Assembly: GCA_903813345.2 (NCBI GenBank)
Contig: CAIIXF020000001.1
Span: 52,347,885 to 52,411,884, forward strand
Length of the DNA stretch: 64,000 nt
Reading direction: 5' to 3'
DNA from: Owenia fusiformis
Lineage: Eukaryota > Annelida > Polychaeta > Sabellida > Oweniidae
In this document: in pieces, positions 130 to 17,369 of the stretch
Layout of the letters: the number at the start of each line of letters is the position of its first letter
Position numbering within the stretch: position 1 is the stretch's first letter
Made by a program: the position numbers and the translations under genes
The notes under the pieces: model-generated
What the model was told of the DNA's origin: nothing
Databases searched by the model: none
What the model saw: only the letters and a program-made list of their open reading frames with translations

Positions 130-3100
130 CTTCTCTCTTTGACCACCTAAGAATTGAGTCCACCTCATGACCAGCGACAGTGTCACACATCAATGGGACT
201 ACTTCCTCGTCTACTCCTATCACAAAGATGCTCGTCTTTACACCCGTCAACATAGCATTGGCTGTTGAGGCCGAATCGGGGGTTTGTCCATTCACTGAAT
301 AAGTCTAGATTGAAAAAATGGTTTTAGGGTGATGTAAATGACCAGAAGACAGCAGCTACGATGAAGATATGCATTACTAAGTTTGTTTTAGGGTGATGTA
401 AATGACCAGAAGACTGTGCACCACCTTCGTTTCATTGAAAGTTACCACATGATGAAAAGAGGGTCATTTTTACACGAAGACAGGTTCTAGTTTTTAAAAA
501 ATGAATTTTTCATCCTGTGCCATTATCATGGTAAAAATTCAGGTAGAATGAGTACAAAGGGTCTTCTGACTTTGCATATATTAGACCACTGATAGTAAGA
601 ACCATTTTCCATGTGTTTAACGTCTTGGTGGAAACAAAATATCACGTAAACTGGTTAAGCAAACTTTTTATGTTTCGTGGCTTCATTTAACACTTATTTC
701 GTTTGGAATGACCTTGAACCCTTGTGCATTCTGGTCCGCCAAACGAACGAACATTAAATAAGGAATTAGCGCACTCGGGTTTGACTGTAAACCTCTTGCT
801 CACTGTCGTATAAATTATGAATGTAGTAGTTTCTCACGGGTGTCAACGGAAAGAAACAGTAAAACCTGCTTTCCCGAACCCGGAAGTATGTCCTGAATCC
901 GCTTCGCATGCCTTTGACTCTTTCTCCACTCTTGGGAGAAACCAATGCCGTGGAGAGATCTGGAATATCTCAAAGCGTGTTTTAATCACCCCCTAACGCA
1001 CAATATTGGTGCTTTGCTAAGATTTAGGCCTACTTTTCAGGCCCGTAGCCAGAGGGGGAGCTGGGGGAGCGGAAGCTGGCCAGAAATTCTTTCAAAATCA
1101 TGCAGTTTTTCACTATTCTGAGAATTTTTCACATTATTTTTAGCCAAAATTGTGAAAAAGCTCCCCCCCCTGGAAAAAAGCTCCCCCCCCTGGTAAAAGC
1201 TGGCTAGGGCAAGCTTTTACAAATGAGAGCCCCTTTTCGGTAATACAGGCCGAATATCACTAAATGGCCATACTCAAAAAACGAGGCACTGCCCGACCTC
1301 CCCTTCGGACTGAGACTCTACAGTGTAAAATGTCATACTTTTGCCAACATGCTGTGGGAAAATTTGTCCCAGCTTAGTTGATGTTCTTCCCCAGTTCCTC
1401 CTAACTGTTGTCCTCTGAGAATCCTAGCAGCCGACATCGTGGTGAGACCCATTCCGTCGCCAATAAATATGATCACATTCTTGGCGAGATTCGTATTAAG
1501 ACCCCGGTTTGCGGCATAGTTGACTGTGTCTTGACCCTGTCGAATCCACTCAGCAGATCCAACCGACTTCCCTTGCATTCTAGCTTGTTTGTTCTCTTCA
1601 TTCCGCTTCAAAATGTTTTCTTGGGCCATGCGAATCAGTTTACCGATATCGTCATTATTTTGAAAATGGGTTGGTATTCCTGAATATTAAAGAGGCATTC
1701 TTTTTTAAGGTGTTTAAACAATTTTTGTTTTTCAGTTCTCATTCCTCACATCGATAATGATGTATTCAAAAACAATCCTCGTCCACCTCATATCCCAAGT
1801 CAGTGGCGTAGGAACAATGTACGCCAAAACGCCAGTGCGTAGTGTTGAAAAGTGAGAATAAAAAATACTTTTTAACTTTCCTATGTTCTTTAGTCATATT
1901 TTCTCATTGTTTAAATTGTAAAAGTAGCCTAAAGAAATGTTTTGTGGATACCATATCATTATTGGTCTGTCTGGCAAATATCATTTAACAGATTGAATTC
2001 CCTTACCAACATGCTTTATTTCATGAAAATCGAGCCACTATTGACTGTCTTATAAATACAATTTCGCCAAATATTCGTGAATCGCGTTCTCTTCACGAAT
2101 TTGAGAGGAAAGCTGTTTTTTTTTTCAAAAACTACTTTATGAATACCTTTGACATTTTTTCTGCATTTTCCGTAATGCTTATGCTAACTATGGTATCATA
2201 TAATTATAATGATGAACCTCTTTAAATTTAGATATATATTTTTTTTATTCTCCCGTACCCCAATTTTTCAATTTCACTATCGATTTATATTCCGTCGCTA
2301 TGCAAAATCATAGACACGAAATTATAGTTAAGTCAACAATTATCTATTTTCTTACTAAATCACTAATTGTTATTGGTAGTACTTTTTGAAATATGGATGT
2401 TAAAGACAAAAACAACTTGAAAATGCTGATTATTCAATTACACGTTCCATTGATTTCAGTTCTAGAAAAGCGATAACCTAGTTTTTTTTCATTTGACAAA
2501 TAATAGATTCTTGTTTTATAACATTTTTTGGCATCCCCTAAGTCACGTTGACCTCGATTTGACCTTTGTGGTGGGTGTATTTATTTGTTTCATTGATCAC
2601 GAATGCGTTTCTTTATATCAATTGATCAAACTAGTTTCTTTAATCTGTACGTATTGTATTGCACGGTACACGATGGAATCCGACAATACTATATATCTTC
2701 AGATCTTAATTCAATTATTCGAAAATGGTTAAAAAATCTCTAATTGTTTTTTGGAAATTGGTCGTCTCAATCGTTCGAGATATTAGCAAAGTGAGAATGA
2801 TTTGTGTCGAGATTTAAAAGATAGGCTTTCCAAGGTGATTTTAAATGATGAAAATCATTCGAACATTTTAAAGCACATTAAAAAGGTATCGGGGATTTAA
2901 AGCTTGCATATGAAATCGAAACGCCAACCTATACGTATGACCAATCGCCCATACAAATGCATCGCTTAAGTATTTCCGTTCACATTTAGGTTGTGAATAT
3001 TGCAAGCTTGAAATCTCTGTTACCATAAAATGACGTTTTACGAGCATTAAATAGGCGTTTTGATATAGAATATTGACACAATTGTTTCATATTTTTTGGC

Positions 3101-6100
3101 GGGATTTTTGGCGTAGTGTTGAATTTACACCTTCCTACGCCCCTGCCAAGTATAGAGCTATATATTTGCTATGTCAGTGACATTGTCCCAGAAAATATGA
3201 ATTTTGTTTTAGATAGCCTTAAAAGACACATAGATCAACGTCAATGCTATGTATAGGTCAGTAATAGGTTAAATCTCGAATCCAAGGTCATACATAAACT
3301 CCAGGCAACTTGTTATTAAATTTAAAGCGAATTTGACCTTGGAATTTTTTTTAATTTTAATAAACTTTAAAATGCTAATATATGTAAGGCCTTTAGAGGA
3401 ATTCATATCCTGGCTTTCAACGAAAATTATTGTCGTACTAGAATAAAACTACCATGTACACTTCCATGATCAGTCTTTTTAAACGTAAAGTGCCTCTCAA
3501 TTAATAACAAATTATGAAAAGCAATTACTGTCTGCTAAATTTCCGTCTGACACTCAAAAGCAGTATTGGCGTACTAAACTCACCTATGTCACAATTGTCA
3601 CCTGTATACCCAGGTTTGCATACACATGTATAACTATAGACTCCATCAATACATGTCCCTCCAGGTGAACAAGGGTCCGGTGAGCAATCATTTATATCTG
3701 TAATGAGGGAGATGTTTATTTACTTACTAAATTGATACAAACTTTGATTCAGTCTTGCCACCCCACCCTCCCTTAAAATCATTTTTATTTACAGCAATCT
3801 GATAATGAACTTGTACCCCATAATATTTAGACTAACAGATGTATTATCAGAAGGGACTCTGCGGGACCCCATTTGACTCGATGTCGCACCATTGGTCAAA
3901 GTCGCACTTCCACGGAATTATGGATCAAAATGGCCGCAGCAAAACCTTTCTGTGGGACACGACAGTGCAAGGTGGGGCTCGATGGGACAACGGGGACAGT
4001 GTCCCATGACAGTTCGTGAGACTCGATCGGGCACGGTGGGATTCGATTCATATGCGATAGGTGGGACCTCTTTTGTTTTGATATTCTTAGTACCATATTT
4101 GTCAAAGTTTCGGAATTCGGTCTAGAATCATCGGTAACACCCCAGTCACATTTGTCGTACGGAGGCCGTGCGTCGACCGCAGATCAATTAATCAGTGTAT
4201 TTCTGCGGCGAGCGTAGGAAAACTACGCTCGCCTTGCGGCCTCCGTACGGCGTATCCAGTTTTTTACAGGCCGCAGGGTCGCCGTAGAAATTATAACTCG
4301 GAGTTATAATATTTGTTCATTTCTGAGGTCCCCGTAGAAATCAACTGGCTTAACAAGATTGAATCACTATTTGTCAATGTTTCACGATCACTTTTCATTT
4401 GATATTACTATGAATAACATTTATAAATTGTCCCGATGTAAATAAAATGAAAAAAGTATTATTTATCAACAGAAATTAAAAATTCACCGTACGGCTGCCG
4501 TGGGAAATGTGACTGCAAAAGTATGAGTGCGCAGAAATTCCACGGCGAGCGTAGAAATGTTACTGGCCCCAGAAATGATAGACCGCAAGGTCGCCGTAGG
4601 AAATGTGACTGGGGTGTTAGTTCCATTACAACCCAGTCACATTTGTCGCACGGCGGCCGTAAGTCGACCGCAGATCAATTAAATCGGTGAATTTCTGCGG
4701 CGAGCGTAGGAAAACTACGGGCGCCTTGCGGTCTCCGTACGGCGTATCCAGTTTTTTACAGGCCGCAGGGTCGCCGTAGAAATTATAACTCGGAGTTGTA
4801 ACATTTGTTCATTTCTGAGGTCCTCGTAGAAATCAACTGGCTCAACAAGATTGAATCATTATTTGTCAATGTTTCACGATCACTTTTCATTTGATATTAC
4901 ATCCTAGCACTATGAATAACATTTACAAATTGTCCTGATGTAAATAAAATGAAAAAAGGTACTATTTATCAACAGCAATTTAATATTCACCGTGTGGCTG
5001 CCGTGGGAAATGTGACTGCAAAAGTATGAGAGCGCAGAAATTCTACGGCGAGCGTAGAAAAGCTACTGGCCGCAGAAATGATAGACCGCACGGTGGCCGT
5101 GGGAAATGTGACTGGTATTTTTCATTTCTGCGGTGCCCGTAGAAATCAAGTGTCTCAACAAGATTGAATCATTATTTGTCAATGTTTCACGATCACTTTT
5201 CATTTGATATTACATCCTAGCACTATGAATAACATCTATAAATTGTCCTGATGTCAATAGACTGAAAAAAAGTATTATTTATCATCAGAAATTTAAAATT
5301 CACCGTGCGACTGCCTCGGGAAATGTGACTGCAAAAGTACAGTATGAGAGCGCAGAAAAATTCTACGGCGAGCGTAGAAAAGCTACTGGCCGCAGAAATG
5401 ATAGACCGCACGGCGGCCGTGGGAAATGTGACTGCCATGGGGTGTTAATTCCACATATCGAACCATGAATATTCAAAATTCCGTGATCGAAATTTTACAT
5501 TTTAATCAACGATGAAGTATAAACATATAGCCAGTTTATCGAATCAGAAAAACCAGCCGAGTTTAAGTTCATTTGCATTGCGGAGCAACATAGTATGATG
5601 CATGATTGATATGATACCTGTCTCGCAATGATCTCCAGTAAAACCACTTGGACAGATGCAAGTATACCCGTCCCCTTCTTCAGTACATGAACCATCGTTA
5701 AAACAAAGGGATTGTTCACAATAATCTGAAAATATATTCAAAGCCGTGTAAAAAGACTGCATAGTCGTTAAAGTGGTAATGAAACAGCTTTACTTGATTT
5801 AGATTATGTTCATGCAACCCTATCTTATTGATGAGCCACATTTGTTCCGATTCATCGGCTTGAGCCAGGCCGCTCTGTAGGCCTAAGTCTGCATATTCGG
5901 AATTTTGATGCAATTCTCAATAGTCACATCTTATTTTTCAAATATAATCACTCCTTCCAGACATTGTCTGCATCTTTCAATTTTGCACAAAGAATGCACT
6001 AATGTACCTAGAATTGTAAAGAATATTTTTTTCATGAATTGGATAAAAACTGAATTTTCTAGTTTTTTATACATTTTACAAATGTGAGGAAGGGGTGATT

Positions 6101-8842
6101 GATCTTTGAAAAATAACATGTGGCTCTATTGAGGATGGCATCGAAACTCAAAACATGCAGTCTGACCTTAATGTTTTGTTCAAAATTATATTCAGTTTTG
6201 AATAAATACTCAATCTGAGGAAACATATTCAGAATTCTAAAATAAAGCTACCTTCACCGAAATTACACTTGATAAGAAAAAAGAATCTGTTTTGAATAAG
6301 GCTCGGTGTGATTTTATTTTTAGACAGCATCTTTTGATTTATAATTTTAGTATTATCGATATTCCAAACTGTTATCGTGGCTTTTGTTGTACTTACTGAT
6401 CGCTAGACACGTTGCATCTGATCCATCCCATCGATATTGCCTGCCGTGCTTTTCACAGACTCGAACACGACTTCCAACCAACTTGAAACCTTTATCGCAG
6501 CTAAACAAAGCATATTTCTTCACCTTACTCGATCTGATTACCAACTGATTACCATTTGGAGGTGATTCTAAAGGTTGACAACCTGGCCAAGAATACATTA
6601 GGGTCATTCAAAAACTTTTAAACACTGCATGTCAATGAAAGATGGCGAAGTCGTTTGTATCACATCATTTATTTTTTATAGATGTGTCGCCATCTTTTGA
6701 ATCAAGAGTTATATAAAAACATGAACTTTGTCAGAATGGGCATGCACTACTAAGAATCTCTGAACTTCAAATGCTATTTTCTACGTGAGCTTTTTTTCTT
6801 GGTTCAATATAAATATGCAAATCAAGCTTTGTATCATATTTGATTAAGTGTGTAAATAACATGTTTCAATATCATATAAAGGATTGGTATCGATATGGCG
6901 ATCTGAATTCAACATTGTTTTTCTATTAAACCAATTATTGAAAACATTCTGCAAAAACACTGATTGACAACAATTTGATGCGAAAATTATTTAGATATTT
7001 TTTTATAATTGTTTTTGATTTTTAGTGCAATTTATTTTTGTTCCTTTCTACCAATTCTTTCCGAATCTTGTTGGAACAGAATAGCATATACAACATTTTC
7101 TTAGACCTCTCAATATTAAAGTTATACAAAGGAAACTTTGATTTTTATTTCATTAACAAGATACTTTTTTAAATCAACCAAACTTTCCTATGTACATTAC
7201 ACTACATTGACAGTTTTCCAAATGTTGTGATCGTATTTTATTTTAAGGGCTTTCCTGTAATTTCTTGTATATGAGGCCTAAAAGATAAGTGCTCGTCTAA
7301 AATTATTCCCAAGTGTTTGTGGTGACCTGATCTATAATTTGTGTATTGCTTTGAAAGACAGGAGGGTTGTTTCCTTCTAGACCCCTTGAAATTAATTTCT
7401 ACACTTTTTGAAGGAATTGAGAATTGACTTCCATTTAAGGAACCATTCTGAAAGTTTATCTTGGTCAGATTGAATTTTTTGTGGAGATCAAAGATGATTT
7501 TTTGTCTGTCACAATGAAGAAAAAAGAACCTTCAGCATACAGATATAATTGGCTATGATTAATGGGTGACAGGTCATCTCAACCCCAAGTCATCTCAACC
7601 CAGTCCAACTCAACCCCAAGTCAAGTCTTTTGTTGAGTTTTACAGGGTTGAGTTGACTTGGGGTTGAGTTTTACTGGGCTGAGTTGACTTGGGGTTGAGA
7701 TGACCAGAAAGCGATTAATGCATATCTTGTTGCATCTCTTGTTACATTGTGAACCTGTCCGAACCCTCCTTTTGATAGAAAGTCAAGCCTTCTTCTTAAA
7801 TTGTACAACTATAGTTTTGCAGACAATTCTATCATCTTTTCAGATTCTAACTTTAGAATAGCATTGGCCAAATATTATCATATGCACCATCTAAATTTGC
7901 ACTACTGAATATAGCTTGACGTGCAATCTTCTGATTCTTCATCATACGTTTCAAAGCCTTTGGCCCTTGGTCCAATGTTTCACTATATTGCCCTTTGAAT
8001 ATGAGGCTATTCACGGTCCCGTTTACACCGTTCCGTATTAGTGGTTTTGTTGACATTATTACGGAATAAATCATACCATTTCGAAAACTGGTGACATTGT
8101 CCTACGGAAATTGAGATTATGTTTCACAGCAAGTTCGCACGGCGATACTGTATAGCACATACAATGTACTCTAGGTAATTGATCTACTTTCTATGGACAC
8201 CAAACACATCTCTGTCGATAGAATAATGAAAAAGCCTTAGGGTCCCAACCTCCTTTGTTTATATTTACAAAACGTTAAAAGATGACAAAAGATGTCATAA
8301 CTTTTTAAATCTTAAACTCTTGCAACCGATTTCACAGCGACAGATACTTTAGTCTTGTACGAAGCGAACATGTCAGTTTGGTTCGTAATATCTCCAAATA
8401 AACGATTTCAACATTTTAAAAAACAGTATCGCCGTGCGAACTTGCTGTGAAACATAATTTCAATTTTCGTAGGACAAGGTCACCATTTTTCATGAAATTG
8501 TATGATTTATTCCGTATTAATGTCAACAAAACCACTAATACGGAACGGTCTAAACGGGACCGTGTATTAGTATATTAACCGAATGAAGATGTATTTGATT
8601 AATCTTACATAATCGAATAAAACAGGTTGTGAATTTAAAGAACCAACCTGAAGAACATGTATGAGACGTGTATTCAATAAATATCGCCACTTATTTGTAG
8701 AAATGTGAAAATATTCTTATATTCACAAACCAACGATCCCCCTACCTTTAAGCATTTTGTCACGTCGGTTCCCACAAACGCAATCTGATATCATCAACAC
8801 GGTCAGTATGGCCGTGAGCTTGAGTAGCGTCAGTACGTCCAT
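130..8842 (-). CDS. Mosaic secreted alkaline phosphatase with N-terminal sushi and two EGF domains (3' part beyond window)
   Basis: Coding exons on the minus strand: 8842-8746, 6582-6397, 5725-5618, 3697-3584, 1679-1339, 304-130; the gene continues past the left edge. Exon 1 starts MDVLTLLKLTAILTVLMISD, a signal peptide (about residues 1-24). Residues 33-95 form a sushi/CCP domain with four Cys and the usual Trp before the last one (RWDGSDATC). Residues 95-131 are an EGF domain (six Cys, CICPSGFTGDHC). Residues 131-169 are a calcium-binding EGF (DINDC start, CIDGVYSYTC). The alkaline phosphatase domain begins near 169, with the metal motif FIGDGMG and the nucleophile-serine motif TPDSASTA. 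The first four introns are all phase 1, so each added module is symmetric and the frame stays open. All splice sites are GT..AG; the donor at 129 (gttcgt) is weak but also used by the neighbour at 16139. The enzyme would hydrolyse phosphate monoesters outside the cell or at its surface; the sushi and EGF part probably mediates adhesion (inference). Splicing between modules is predicted, not shown. Confidence 0.85.
320..416. repeat. Direct repeat in phosphatase intron
   Basis: A 30-base word starting GTTTTAGGGTGATGTAAATG occurs at about 320-350 and again 66 bases later at about 387-416. It lies just upstream (in gene sense) of the exon 304-130. Confidence 0.8.
1801..3145. mobile_element. hAT-like non-autonomous transposon in the mosaic phosphatase intron
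   Basis: The element begins CAGTGGCGTAGGAA and ends TTCCTACGCCCCTG, imperfect terminal inverted repeats, and is flanked by CCAAGT on both sides (1795-1800 and 3146-3151). Flanking intron sequence is homologous to the first intron of the neighbouring phosphatase (17060-17300), which lacks the insert. No transposase reading frame is visible. The clean flanking repeat is 6 bp, or 8 bp with mismatch. Confidence 0.8.
4137..5446. mobile_element. Head-to-tail array of three inverted-repeat elements
   Basis: Unit 1 (4137-4617) starts ACACCCCAGTCACATTT and ends AAATGTGACTGGGGTGT with TA on both sides. Unit 2 (about 4631-5115) is a close copy, and unit 3 (about 5120-5446) lacks the left part. The units contain internal CG-rich palindromes around CGGCGAGCGTAG. 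The TA flanks suggest a Tc1/mariner-type origin, but no transposase is present. Confidence 0.8.
5930..6170. repeat. Dispersed repeat copy A
   Basis: Shares an interrupted but ordered similarity with 57720-57900 (blocks such as TTTTGCACAAAGAATGCACT, AATGTACCTAGA and GACCTTAAT). It is probably an old transposon family; the full ends are not clear here. Confidence 0.5.
7572..7706. mobile_element. Foldback element
   Basis: GGTCATCTCAACCCCAAGTC at the left pairs with GACTTGGGGTTGAGATGACC at the right, and internal TTGAGTTGACTTGGGG words repeat. The whole 135 bases can form one hairpin. Confidence 0.75.
8012..8564. mobile_element. Long-TIR element in the first intron of the mosaic phosphatase
   Basis: About 145 bp at the left (CACGGTCCCGTTTACACCGT onward) is repeated inverted at the right (ending ACGGGACCGTG), with TATT on both flanks. 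The 270-base centre has no coding potential that I recognise. The right end lies about 180 bases from the signal-peptide exon. Confidence 0.8.
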
Positions 8843-9413
8843 CTTCTTAGTTCCTGTATAATTATTCTGGCCTCGTTAATAATAATTCACATACTATTAC
8901 AAAGCTTCAATAGAAAATATGATTTTAATTTTCAAGGATTATTAGACTCCAGATTTGATTGGTTTTGTCAGTTTTATTCATGAAAATATACAGTTCAAGC
9001 AAACAATAAGGTATCTAATGTTGAATCTGGATATTAGAAATTTCTTAACATTCTAAAGGTATCAATATTTCAGAAGCAAAGAAATAAAATATGCCAAAGT
9101 ATCCATTGTATTCTTGCCAGTATTCTTCTACTTTCTTTTTCCTCTTCCACGCAAGTTTTCTCGGCAACTAGAAGAGCTTACTCTCCGCAACTTACAGGGT
9201 TGGTTTACAAATGTGTCTTCGATAATTGGAAATTAGCTCAATTTTTTTTTATCTAGGTCAAAGGTCAAGAACTAGATCAAATCTTGAGTTTTCACTATTT
9301 CACGACTTTTCTCAATTGTCCTTCAATATTTTGCTCCGGGTCTTTTTCATCATGTTTCTTGGAAAAAAGGCTAATTCCGGAAGGTAAATCGTTTTCTCTT
9401 TAGAGACACGATT

Positions 9414-11197: not shown

Positions 11198-11440
11198 TTT
11201 AAAGATTCTCGCAATCTTTATCCAATCAGCGTTTGCGAGTGTGTCTGCTCACGTATAAAAGGCGAATCCAACTCAAATCCATGCAGGGGTGTATGAGGTA
11301 CTCGAATAGGAAAGAGCTCGTGAACTCTGAATTTATATGCACATGGTCAATGTTTACACATGTTTGGAGTTATTGAAGAAAATGTGATATGGGTGTGGTT
11401 CCGAATTTGAAGTCATTATTGGAAAATATGATTTTAATAC
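11198..11440 (+). repeat. Duplicated promoter-like segment, copy 1
   Basis: This 243-base segment is almost identical to 14934-15176 with no length change. It begins TTTAAAGATTCTCGCAATC and contains a CCAAT box (CCAATCAGCG, 11222) and a TATA box (CGTATAAAAGGCG, about 11252) in order on the plus strand. No coding exon or known RNA follows. Copy 1 abuts the sequence ACAGGGTGTT, a typical transposon end. Confidence 0.75.
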
Positions 11441-12372: not shown

Positions 12373-15300
12373 CTATGGACGGTTACAATGCATCTTGTTT
12401 TCTCCAACACAGGATGCATATGCCATTGCGTGTGCGACATAACTTTGTTCCTGCACCCCATAGAATAAATGCGCCATGGGACCATTTGCCATTACAATCA
12501 CGTCCTCTCCACTGTGAGTCTCGGAGCTTAGTGGTACTGGACTCTGTTGGCGATAGTTGGAATCACCTATATCAGTGAAGCATGTAGTAAATTAATTGAG
12601 ATGCATGCCTTCCATTTAGATGTATCGTTAATTCTGTTATGATACCCATAGCGTCTGATGCATATAACAATACTTATCTATTTGCTAAGTTCATAAAACG
12701 TACGTGTTCGCGGCCGAGGGGTAAATAATTTTGGACTTGAATAATTTTACATAGAAAAAATTCCTAGTGCTTACTCGTATCGACATTCTCCAGATCCTCT
12801 CGAGTCGTTAGATCCTCAGGGTCAGCTCCAGTATCATTGTAAACACCTTGATATCCTGGACCATTGCCATACGTCAGAGTTGTGTAAGGTTTGTCATCAG
12901 CTGCATCAACTAATGTTTTGCCTATAAAAACAACACATTTTATAGGATATGTTGTGTATGGTTTATAATCAGGTAAATTAACTAAGGTTTTAGGATGTAT
13001 AAAATATAAACCTTCGCCTTCTTTGTATTGTACGGTGAAACGAACCAAATCTCCAACAATTTTTATCACCTAGTAGCGTGTATTTGATCGATGTTGCATT
13101 TACATTGAACAGATTATGACATAGCCTACCCAAAATGGGATTTCCTCTTTCACTGTATCCGCCAAATGCCAGCACGTGTCCATGATCAGCGGTGACTACA
13201 ATTAGAGTATCATTTTCGCTGGTCATGTTGACAGCGGTCTCAACAGCACGATCAAGGGCAATTGTCTCTAGAAGGGCACGTGCTGCTCTACCACTGTGGT
13301 GTCCAGAGTCAATACGTCCACCTTTAAGGAAAAGATGATAACACGTTAAATGATATGAAGTCTACCTGTAAAGAAATGTATCAATGAATGGATTATTGGA
13401 TTACCTCTGTACGATACCTAATATAATAGAGAGGTTTCGACACCGCTCTATTATATTAGGTTAAAATACTGTACCCTCTACTAGTAAGAAGAATCCATTT
13501 TCATTTTTGCTTAGTATTTCGATTGCTTTTTGCGTCATTTCAGAGATCGATGGCTCTCCAGCGATGTCACCATCTATTCTATCAGCGTCATTACGCATGC
13601 TCTGGCGTTCAAACAAACCTAAGAGTACAATTAAAAGCATTAAAGATGTTATAAGACATCGAGATTCATTTGTTTATTTCTTTATTTGTTTGTTTGTTTA
13701 TTTGTTTGTTAATTTGTTTGTTTGTGAGAATGTATTTCAAAACATACTCGTTAGGTTCACGGATGAGGAATTTATGAAGGGGATCGGAGGGGGACAGATA
13801 GTGACACAAAATGTACAAATGAAGGAGAAGATAGTCATAAAACTAATGACAGTTTTTCATTTACCCATAAGGTAATCTGTGTTGGCCGGGTTCACCTCAT
13901 TGAATGCTGATATATTCCAAACATAGGCTGGTCTCTGATTGATACTCAACTTATGATCGTACCATTCCTAGAAATAATGCAGCTCTCATATAGCAATAGC
14001 TGTAGCATGGACCTGGTACCTGTACTCATTTATAGGAGATGCATTTGCCCGGTGGTATCTTAAATGCATTTTGTCGCTTTATCAGCATTCATTACGCCCA
14101 GTTTGTTTGATGCTTCTATGATATGACCTTTATTAGTTTTACAGAAAAAACTGTGATGTGGAACGCCTCTGTAAGGGGAACACCTCTGTAAGATGGAACA
14201 TTTTCGCCACGTCTGTCAGTGAAACACTTCTCAGTTATGAGACCCATTGATTGAGGTAAGCTTCTGCTAGTGGAATACTCTCAAAGTACAAGCACCACCA
14301 TGCAAAGGCGTTCAACCCGTTTATGAAATCGTTACTGGACTTAAGTTAATGAGACGATTTGATGATACTAATATTTGAGTTCATTGCCAGAGACCTACCT
14401 GAATAAGATCCCTGCCGTCCTCTCTGAAACCAACTTCAAAGGGATATTCCGGGTCCTCTTGGTTCTCATTCATGAAGTACGAACGTCCACCTCCCAATAT
14501 AACCTACAGGTGAACAACAATTTAACCTTAGAATTAACCACTGCTTCAGTAAGTGTATTAGTGATGTCTGATATTCATGGTCATAAAACGTGCACGGGAC
14601 TCGTGCACGGGAATTTTACGATTTCTGCTCGAAAATTCAACTTTGCAAGATTTATTTCTTCATGAGAAAGTTTACTAGTATGATAAAATCTGTGACGCAT
14701 TCTATGAATTTTTGAACCGATACGCTTCTCAGGTATGAGATCTATTAAAAACTCGCACACATCACCATTTTCAAATAATAGAAAAATAATACATTATTAT
14801 AAAAATCTTTAGTTTTACTGAAATAAAGTGTGCACCTTTTTTCAAAATAGACATGAAAAGGAATGACATAAGCCAGAAATAATCAAAAATTGAAACATTT
14901 TTTATAAGGCTGCTCGCTAGATCTGATTCTCTCTTTAAAGATTCTCGCAATCTTTATCCAATCAGCGTTTGCGAGTGTGTCGGCTCACGTATAAAAGGCG
15001 AATCCAACTCAAATCCATGCAGGGGTGTATGAGGTACTCGAATAGGAAAGAGCTCGTGAAATCTGAATTTATATGCACATGGTCAATGTTTACACATGTT
15101 TGGAGTTATTGAAGAAAATGTGATATGGGTGTGGTTCCGAATTTGAAGTCATTGCTGGAAAATATGATTTTAATACGTGAAATTATATCTATAAATACAG
15201 CACTAAAACTAACAGTACACATGAAGTACATGTATGATTGTGTCCAGAAATGTTTGAAACCCTTACAGAAAATTCTGTCTGCATATTGTCACCATTGCTC

Positions 15301-17369
15301 TTTCTTCCCGCATTCTAGTGCTGTTTGAATGAATATATTAATTAATGTATTTCTAACTAAAATATATCACATTTTTTTATAAACCACAAACATTTAGATC
15401 ATAAAAAAATCCAATACTTGAGTGAGCACGATATGCAAGGGTTACTAAGTTGATACAGTAAATGACCACTGATATTGTGTTAGCAAATATGTATTAGCAG
15501 AATACGCTGTGTGCGTGGACTAACACCCCTCACTTTCATAGTGAAGTGACTAATTGGTTTATGTTTACGTTTTAATGTGTTTTGGTTTCCTTGTTACAGC
15601 AAGGGGGGCCAGTAAAGTAGACTAACATGTTTGCATGGCAAATTTTGATCGAATATGTGAGACACTTTAAATGAGTTTAAAACGTTTAAAAAGTGATCAA
15701 AAATAACCAATACAGGGCATGAAGAGGGGTTGCGTGGAGGAGAATTGATATGTCTTATATCTATAAGGTAGCTGGATCAAATCATTTGCAAGAAATTTTT
15801 CATCAAGACCTAATGATCTACCTCAATATCAGTATTATTGACAACGAGTTGCTTTGTTATATCAGGACATTGTGCCTCTTCCCACTCCGGTACTTGATGG
15901 TCTCCCTCCCAGCATCGACATGGGGAGTGTGCAAACGCCGCGGCTGGGGTGGCGTGACTCGGCCTTGTTGTCGTGATCAAGCCAGCTGCTTTACCTGCAT
16001 GGTAAAAAGTTATCACAGCTCAATAAATGGGCAAACAGTCAGAAAAGAAATGCCCCCACTCCGATCCATTACTTTCAGTTTCAGTTGCAAATAGAATGGG
16101 CGGCAAATAGTGATCCCAAGCTCATAACATTGACGAACCTTCTCTCTTTGACCACCTAAGTATCGAGTCCACCTCATGGCCAGCGACAGTGTCACACATG
16201 TACGGGACAACCTCCTCATCTACTCCTATCACCCAGACGCTCGACTTCACACCCGTCAACATAGCATTTGCTGTTGAGGCCGAATCGGGGGTTTGTCCAT
16301 TCACTGAATAAGTCTAAAAAACATAAAACCTCTATTATGAAAATGAAAAGCCCATTTTATTTCTTCAAATATGCAATGGATATGAATTATTTTTTGATAC
16401 AATGGGGGTGAGAGGTTTTCTTCAATGATGCAATTTGCTTTTGTTATCTAATAATTGGTCCGCACGTCCGTCGATAAATCTGCAGATCTGCACACTTTCG
16501 GATTAAAAAGTGAGATTAGATCTGAATACTGGTCTGGAAATTGTCAAATGGGGCTCATTTGCCTTTTTAAACTCGGGCCCACTTTTGAAACTGTGGAAAA
16601 TAGAGATCAAAATTTCCAAACAATGAGTAAAAACGCCCTATTTTAGAATTAAGACCACTAGGCCCCGCTAGCTATCCCCCAGACCCTCCAGTGTAAAATG
16701 TCATACTTTTGCCAACATGCTGTGGGAAAATTTGTCCCAGCTAAGTTGATGTTCTTCCCCAGTTCCTCCTAACTGTTGTCCTCTGAGGATCCTAGCAGCC
16801 GACATCGTGGTGAGACCCATTCCGTCGCCAATAAATATGATCACATTCTTGGCGAGATTCGTATTAAGACCCCGGTTTGCGGCATAGTTGACTGTGTCTT
16901 GACCCTTTCGGATCCACTCAGCAGATCCAACCGATTTCCCTTGCATTCTAGCTTGTTTGTTCTCTTCATTCCGCTTCAGAATATTTTCTTGGTACATACG
17001 GATCACTTCTTCACTGAATGTATGGTCATCATCATCCTTTTGAGAATGGGTTGGTTTTCCTGAATTAAAAAGGCACTCTTTCTTAAAGGCGCGTAAATAA
17101 TCTGTGTATTGCTTTTCAGTTCACATTGCTCGCATAAGGTATCATGAAACAATCGCCGTCCACCTCATATCCCTCTATAAAGTTATTTGCTAAGGCAGTC
17201 ACATTGTCTCAAGATATAGATGAATTTTGTTTTAGTAAATAGCCTTAAGGACACATACACAGTCAATGATATATGACATAACAATTTTAAATGACAAATA
17301 GGGCCTACCTCCGTATGCATGCGCGGCTAAAGTTACCACAAGTAGCAGGGTAATGACTCTAGAAGACAT
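12373..17369 (-). CDS. Alkaline phosphatase (tissue-nonspecific type), complete
   Basis: Ten coding exons on the minus strand: 17369-17309, 17059-16707, 16313-16139, 15994-15822, 14503-14399, 13967-13865, 13618-13475, 13321-13130, 12921-12775, 12566-12373. They total 1647 nt (548 aa) with phases agreeing at every junction. Residues 1-18 are a signal peptide. Active-site features are present: D99 in FIGDGMG, nucleophile S149 in TPDSASTA, R207 in [11 protein letters not shown]371 and D376/H380 in [12 protein letters not shown]417/H418 in TADHGH, and H502 in SETHSGEDV. One position differs from vertebrate enzymes: the DHGHH motif reads DSGHH, but the replaced His is not a metal ligand in the human enzymes, so activity should persist. 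The protein ends at HCNRP without the hydrophobic tail of GPI-anchored members, so it is probably secreted rather than anchored (inference). It lies 3.5 kb downstream of the mosaic paralogue on the same strand. Its signal-exon intron is phase 1, the slot where the paralogue holds its extra modules. Confidence 0.93.
13417..13463. repeat. Perfect 17-base inverted repeat in phosphatase intron
   Basis: ACCTAATATAATAGAG and CTCTATTATATTAGGT flank a 13-base loop. It lies 12 bases into the intron downstream of the exon ending at 13475. Confidence 0.8.
13671..13725. repeat. (TTTG/TTTA)n microsatellite
   Basis: Runs of TTTGTTTGTTTATTTGTTTG with few interruptions inside a phosphatase intron. Confidence 0.85.
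14934..15176 (+). repeat. Duplicated promoter-like segment, copy 2
   Basis: Second copy of the 243-base segment, inside the intron between exons 15994-15822 and 14503-14399 of the complete phosphatase and antisense to it. Only a few substitutions separate the copies, so the duplication is recent. Confidence 0.75.

Follow-up and report, generated by a model that had tools for sequence, protein, structure and literature searches.

Two tandem genes of the annelid Owenia fusiformis, designated A and B, probably each encode one secreted mosaic protein in which a sushi module and two EGF modules precede an alkaline phosphatase (AP), with recombination at a phase-1 intron, followed by duplication, as the best explanation of their origin. 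In the first of these steps, the 5' exons of a sushi-EGF gene would have come to stand in front of an AP body through recombination within a phase-1 intron, and in the second the combined sushi-EGF-AP unit would have been duplicated to give A and B. Among animals, such mosaics restricted to single lineages are common. The window, by which we mean the whole stretch of 64,000 nucleotides analysed (C1:52347885-52411884), holds the 5' part of B and a neighbouring plain phosphatase, gene C; the genome searched totals 498 Mb. In this genome the haemoglobin-linker family, a marker of annelids, matches above its cut-off at three sites, and for the COX1 family no match was obtained at E 0.001.

Gene B occupies the minus strand at G000 C1:52343804-52356726, and its 13 exons join into a single frame of 692 amino acids (coding sequence 2079 nt) in which the sole stop is terminal. 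The encoded order is signal peptide, sushi, EGF, calcium-type EGF, a linker of about 42 residues and a complete AP. Introns are GT-AG throughout, and the four that form the borders between the signal, sushi, EGF1, EGF2 and first AP (AP1) exons are all phase 1. Exons 7-13 lie to the left of the window (C1:52343804-52347764), and the six exons inside it are the following:

8746-8842, minus strand: exon 1, start codon and signal peptide (MDVLTLLKLTAILTVLMISDCVCG...); 97 nt, outgoing phase 1
6397-6582, minus strand: exon 2, sushi (CCP) module; 186 nt, phase 1-1; Pfam Sushi 5.7e-8
5618-5725, minus strand: exon 3, EGF module 1 with six Cys; 108 nt, phase 1-1; Pfam EGF PF00008 1.4e-7
3584-3697, minus strand: exon 4, EGF module 2 with six Cys; 114 nt, phase 1-1; Pfam EGF PF00008 3.2e-9
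1339-1679, minus strand: exon 5, linker (about 42 residues) and start of the AP (AP1); 341 nt, incoming phase 1, outgoing phase 0; Pfam Alk_phosphatase 3.3e-11
130-304, minus strand: exon 6 (AP2), AP segment that includes the catalytic serine motif PDSAS; 175 nt; Pfam 1.7e-11

The exon coordinates of the original prediction, from signal to AP1, were all reproduced on the minus strand with GT-AG borders, and the single open frame that it had proposed from signal peptide to AP is borne out by the 13 exons joining with one terminal stop. Its description of the sushi, EGF1 and EGF2 exons as multiples of three between phase-1 introns also holds, with one module per exon (186, 108, and 114 nt) and phase-1 flanks giving a symmetric 1-1 mosaic. 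The signal exon has a hydrophobic core (KD 2.35 across 13 residues) and no Pfam match. The sushi module carries the four Cys and the Trp and scores 33.5 bits against PF00084 (cut-off 20.7), and EGF1 and EGF2 reach 32.1 and 37.3 bits against PF00008 (cut-off 21.5). EGF2 fits the calcium-binding EGF consensus with DINDC...CIDGVYSYTC, which EGF1 does not, and the Pfam EGF_CA profile (PF07645) gives EGF2 19.4 bits, below its cut-off of 27. This consensus pattern covers both calcium binding and Asp/Asn hydroxylation. The AP of B lies above the curated cut-off of PF00245, and residues 211-689 align to tissue-nonspecific AP with an E-value of 1e-136.

Gene A (C1:52325365-52340331) lies approximately 16 kb downstream of B and repeats its 13 exons in order, lengths, and phases, with an intact frame of 692 amino acids. 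As this tandem copy has the identical layout and an intact frame, the exon layout of B is not due to chance. We infer that each gene is read as a single transcript. The 5' flanks of A and B match each other, and their AP parts are 95.0% identical as protein. The third member of the array, gene C (window 12373-17369), is a plain phosphatase comprising a signal exon and nine AP exons, and its comparison with B locates the junction between modules and enzyme:

17309-17369, minus strand: first exon of gene C, encoding a signal peptide of its own; 61 nt, outgoing phase 1; without a match to the A/B signal exon
12373-17059, minus strand: gene C exons 2-10, AP body without modules; 92.9% identical to the AP protein of B
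3163-3250, minus strand: 5' limit of the intron sequence common to B and C, where the 5' half specific to A/B meets the shared AP body; B versus C 80% over 93 columns

The neighbouring phosphatase had been predicted to carry a phase-1 intron between signal peptide and enzyme, and it does, the 61-nt signal exon of C ending in phase 1. The sequence common to A and C extends from AP1 upstream and covers 212-220 bp of the intron (84% across 584 aligned columns, AP1 included), and the intron homology of A/B with C ends about 36 bp past the donor of the C signal exon. Read 5' to 3', the array consists of C with its own start and AP, then intergenic sequence with the start and modules of B followed by its AP, then intergenic sequence with the start and modules of A followed by its AP. 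The C signal exon has no same-strand match to A/B, nor do the 4.7 kb upstream of it have one to the A/B 5' flanks. Since the 5' flank, signal exon, and modules of A/B are all unlike C, it is the entire 5' end that differs and not inserted modules alone. The original prediction had the modules entering the intron of the phosphatase, from which a C-like signal exon would be expected upstream of the A/B modules; no such match was found and the 5' flank of C differs too, so this part of the prediction has to be revised. With both signal exon and 5' flank different from C, the locus does not present modules inserted into the intron of an otherwise unchanged host gene. An exchange of the 5' half of the gene at the phase-1 intron, in other words a gene fusion, would be the simpler reading. 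With the junction readable to within tens of bases inside an intron, the array offers a compact case for the joining of modules to an enzyme via a common splice phase.

Eight AP genes were found in the genome, namely A, B, and C and five further genes, counted by their first AP exon, at three loci:

C1:41470219-41498787: two AP genes (C1:41.47 Mb)
C6:18061405-18069551: one AP gene
C10:4231717-4254846: two AP genes

The catalytic Ser, the Arg, and the metal ligands are complete in A and C (11 of 11) and nearly so in B (10 of 11). The exception in B is residue 354, the His153 position at the third metal site, which is Asp in B and His in all seven of the remaining AP genes; E. coli AP has Asp at that metal site. 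Judging from its residues, B may be active with an altered metal preference, or it may have lost activity. The codon of Asp354 lies in exon 7 (C1:52347592-52347764), just left of the window. Inspected by eye, the C-termini of A, B, and C all read ...HCNRP before the stop and bear no hydrophobic GPI-type tail; both genes at C1:41.47 and both C10 genes have such tails and the C6 gene stops without one. A C-terminal GPI-attachment signal is usual, but not universal, in animal APs. No membrane-spanning stretch of 19 residues was found in A/B outside the signal peptide, and the product is likely secreted, no part suited to attachment being seen other than the modules.

As A/B have no GPI-type tail, the N-terminal modules probably stand in for lipid anchoring. 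Through them the enzyme would be kept at the surface of a matrix, a cell, or a microbe and would remove phosphate locally. Animal APs are dimers, and a dimer with one arm per subunit would allow two-point attachment; calcium-binding EGF domains are known to stiffen tandem EGFs in other proteins. Animal APs are commonly bound to the cell by a lipid anchor; in A/B this task seems to fall to a protein arm. The neighbouring gene C, nearly identical but lacking the arm, offers a natural control for the effect of an adhesion arm on a well-understood enzyme. We put forward tentatively, as possible though open to considerable doubt, the fuller scenario of an anchor swap, in which a GPI-less AP line would have gained a sushi-EGF-cbEGF targeting arm by one phase-1-intron recombination and the copies would then have been diverging in metal chemistry (the Asp of B). 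It has also to be considered whether A and B are immune phosphatases, the modules binding microbes or host surfaces and the enzyme dephosphorylating lipopolysaccharide or nucleotides there. By analogy this draws on the tubeworm Lamellibrachia, for which the available part of one report describes eight AP copies, compared with one each in Capitella and Helobdella, an expansion of sushi genes, and a link of AP to tolerance of Gram-negative bacteria (PMC6862839), and there are eight AP genes here too. However, the AP and sushi genes in the available part of that report are separate genes (PMC6862839), and we find an immune role rather doubtful.

All eight AP genes have a phase-1 acceptor where the enzyme begins; in the five further genes, in which the signal exons were not located, it was read by eye and the phase taken from the two bases that it leaves ahead of the first complete codon. 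On these acceptors, the intron position at the enzyme start appears to be old and common to all AP genes found. The human AP gene also has a phase-1 intron at this point. Modules were found at only two of the eight, A and B. At the loci of the other five genes, tblastn with the whole B protein (E 0.01) returned AP matches only, and none of the sushi matches listed (of 148) or of the module matches listed, which were part of a total of 159, lies near them; the module search scored the best 150 of 1606 candidates, and weak or unscored modules at AP loci are possible. An unrooted tree of the AP bodies sets A+B apart from C and the rest with a support of 0.865, its five paralogue rows being partial (420-467 of 524 columns) and taken from unspliced matches, for which reason deviant residues at the ends of exons (E311 in four genes and H358 in one) were treated as alignment edges. 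As six of the eight AP genes are without modules, we infer the polarity to be one of gain, and the distribution of modules together with the tree favours a gain in A/B. What speaks against a gain is that the donor searches described below did not turn up a source gene for the modules. The reverse direction would make the mosaic the older state and C the derived gene, which would have lost the signal, sushi, and EGF exons and taken a new signal exon. This would be in keeping with modules for which no close relative was found in the genome, as expected of an old fusion, and with the position of C at the array edge, where a duplication boundary could cut a unit. Against this, the searches showed no modules at the five AP genes elsewhere, and with the tree parting A+B from C and the rest, fewer steps are needed if the modules were gained in A/B. 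Both of these counter-arguments could be misled by gene conversion inside the array, which may also make the AP bodies look younger than the fusion. On balance we regard a derived C as unlikely.

The differences between A and B are unevenly spread, with 5 of 504 bases in the module part and 58 of 1572 in the AP part (dN 0.008 and dS 0.019 versus dN 0.024 and dS 0.091, respectively). From the signal exon to EGF1, purifying selection was not detected, exons differing at 4 of 391 sites and introns at 42 of 2784 (Fisher p = 0.65); the local-identity filter removed none of the 3175 columns, gaps were not counted, and this test did not extend to the EGF2 stretch, where 28 of 876 sites differ with the exon counted in. 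With module exons about as similar as introns, the conservation of the modules reflects recent common descent or conversion, and selection is not demonstrated. Closeness of this degree also raises the question of whether A and B are one locus, two haplotypes of which were assembled in tandem, which would leave the architecture real and the gene single. Their introns from the signal exon to EGF1 differ at 1.5% of aligned sites, a level that is plausible for alleles in marine invertebrates. The AP bodies diverge more, however (dS 0.091), the introns are unequal in size, a repeat is oriented differently in the two, and the units stand in a regular array with C. None of these points is decisive, and taking them together we consider two haplotypes quite improbable and two tandem genes the better account.

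A different concern is that two genes have been misjoined, a small secreted sushi-EGF-EGF protein upstream and a phosphatase with its own, unseen first exon. Misjoined genes can mimic new architectures, as described in the available part of one report (PMC3927609), and it is for this reason that the tandem copy and the short EGF2-AP1 intron of A matter. That intron measures 557 bp in A versus 1904 bp in B, most of the difference being one stretch:

1800-3146, minus strand: about 1.35 kb of the EGF2-AP1 intron of B that are missing from that of A, by sequence comparison

Among the five ATG frames of at least 12 codons in the 557 bp of A, none reaches a phase-1 donor that would make an alternative signal exon; the intron of B has a few ATG frames with a phase-1 GT. 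The absence of an alternative signal exon from the intron of A argues against misjoining. Although the frame of EGF2, continued past the donor, runs for 16 codons in A and 19 in B before a stop, AATAAA/ATTAAA signals occur in the EGF2-AP1 intron (three in A, six in B), and misjoined neighbours are a known source of false architectures, the phases fit at every border in both copies and AP1 begins in phase 1 and, like its counterparts in the other AP genes, requires an exon to pair with, which leaves misjoining very unlikely.

The source of the modules was sought in several ways. With the signal exon alone as query, both of the two matches were A and B themselves, a weak donor test as signal peptides change fast. 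The sushi query gave 148 matches (from the best 150 of 190 candidates scored) without a donor, the best-scoring ones outside A/B being 41-43% identical, and with the DNA of window 5600-9000 (signal to EGF1) only intron stretches, mostly of one repeat, were found outside A/B among the best 40 of 6236 candidates. Just downstream of A, where the remainder of a donor gene was predicted, 31.4 kb (C1:52294001-52325400) yielded no same-strand tblastn match better than E 0.75. The module tblastn matches up to E 0.025 in this region are all on the opposite strand, those with E <0.001 being 33-42% identical, and same-strand pattern matches fall in repetitive or antisense frames. At C1:52307000-52310700, on the plus strand and thus opposite to the phosphatases, there are frames that contain several EGF-like stretches and others that look DSL-like by eye, and about 6 kb beyond them lies a repetitive Thr-rich frame, also on the strand opposite to the phosphatases.

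Set against known systems, A/B resemble the tissue-nonspecific type of animal AP (PF00245; chains 10tv and 7yiw) in the AP body, the catalytic Ser, Arg, and metal ligands, and the phase-1 intron at the enzyme start, and differ from it by the sushi-EGF-EGF N-terminus, the linker of about 42 residues, the lack of a GPI-type tail and, in B, the change of His to Asp. Gene C is like B in the AP body (92.9%) and in part of the first intron, and unlike it in the signal exon, the 5' flank, and the absence of modules. Of the Notch-type EGF arrays (PDB 9b3n and 5mwb), 9b3n matches with a whole-chain E of 1e-33, the best stretch being B residues 95-169, that is EGF1-EGF2; A/B differ in having two EGFs only, a sushi module before them, and an enzyme after them. 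An AP of the land-snail shell matrix presents a likeness in its extracellular setting, although in the available part of that report it has the AP domain only, and sushi proteins are separate entries (PMC6368272). According to the available part of another report, Alp genes have multiplied independently in vertebrate chordates, non-vertebrate chordates, and protostomes (PMC3469785). The original prediction knew of no described AP with this N-terminus, and within the open-licence PMC literature, as far as its available texts extend, none was found on this architecture.

Repeats occur in and around the genes. In intron 1 of B, window 8009-8567 holds an element with inverted ends of about 145 bp that are 93% alike; it looks like a non-autonomous DNA transposon, and with the best 40 of 6236 candidates scored, dozens of similar copies were found on most large contigs. 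In B, the intron between EGF1 and EGF2 contains three copies of a repeat of approximately 320-490 bp (window 4137-5453; 85-91% alike), and the corresponding stretch in A is inverted. Near-identical open frames on the plus strand at window 11203-11376 and 14939-15112 belong to an interspersed repeat found beside and inside gene C.
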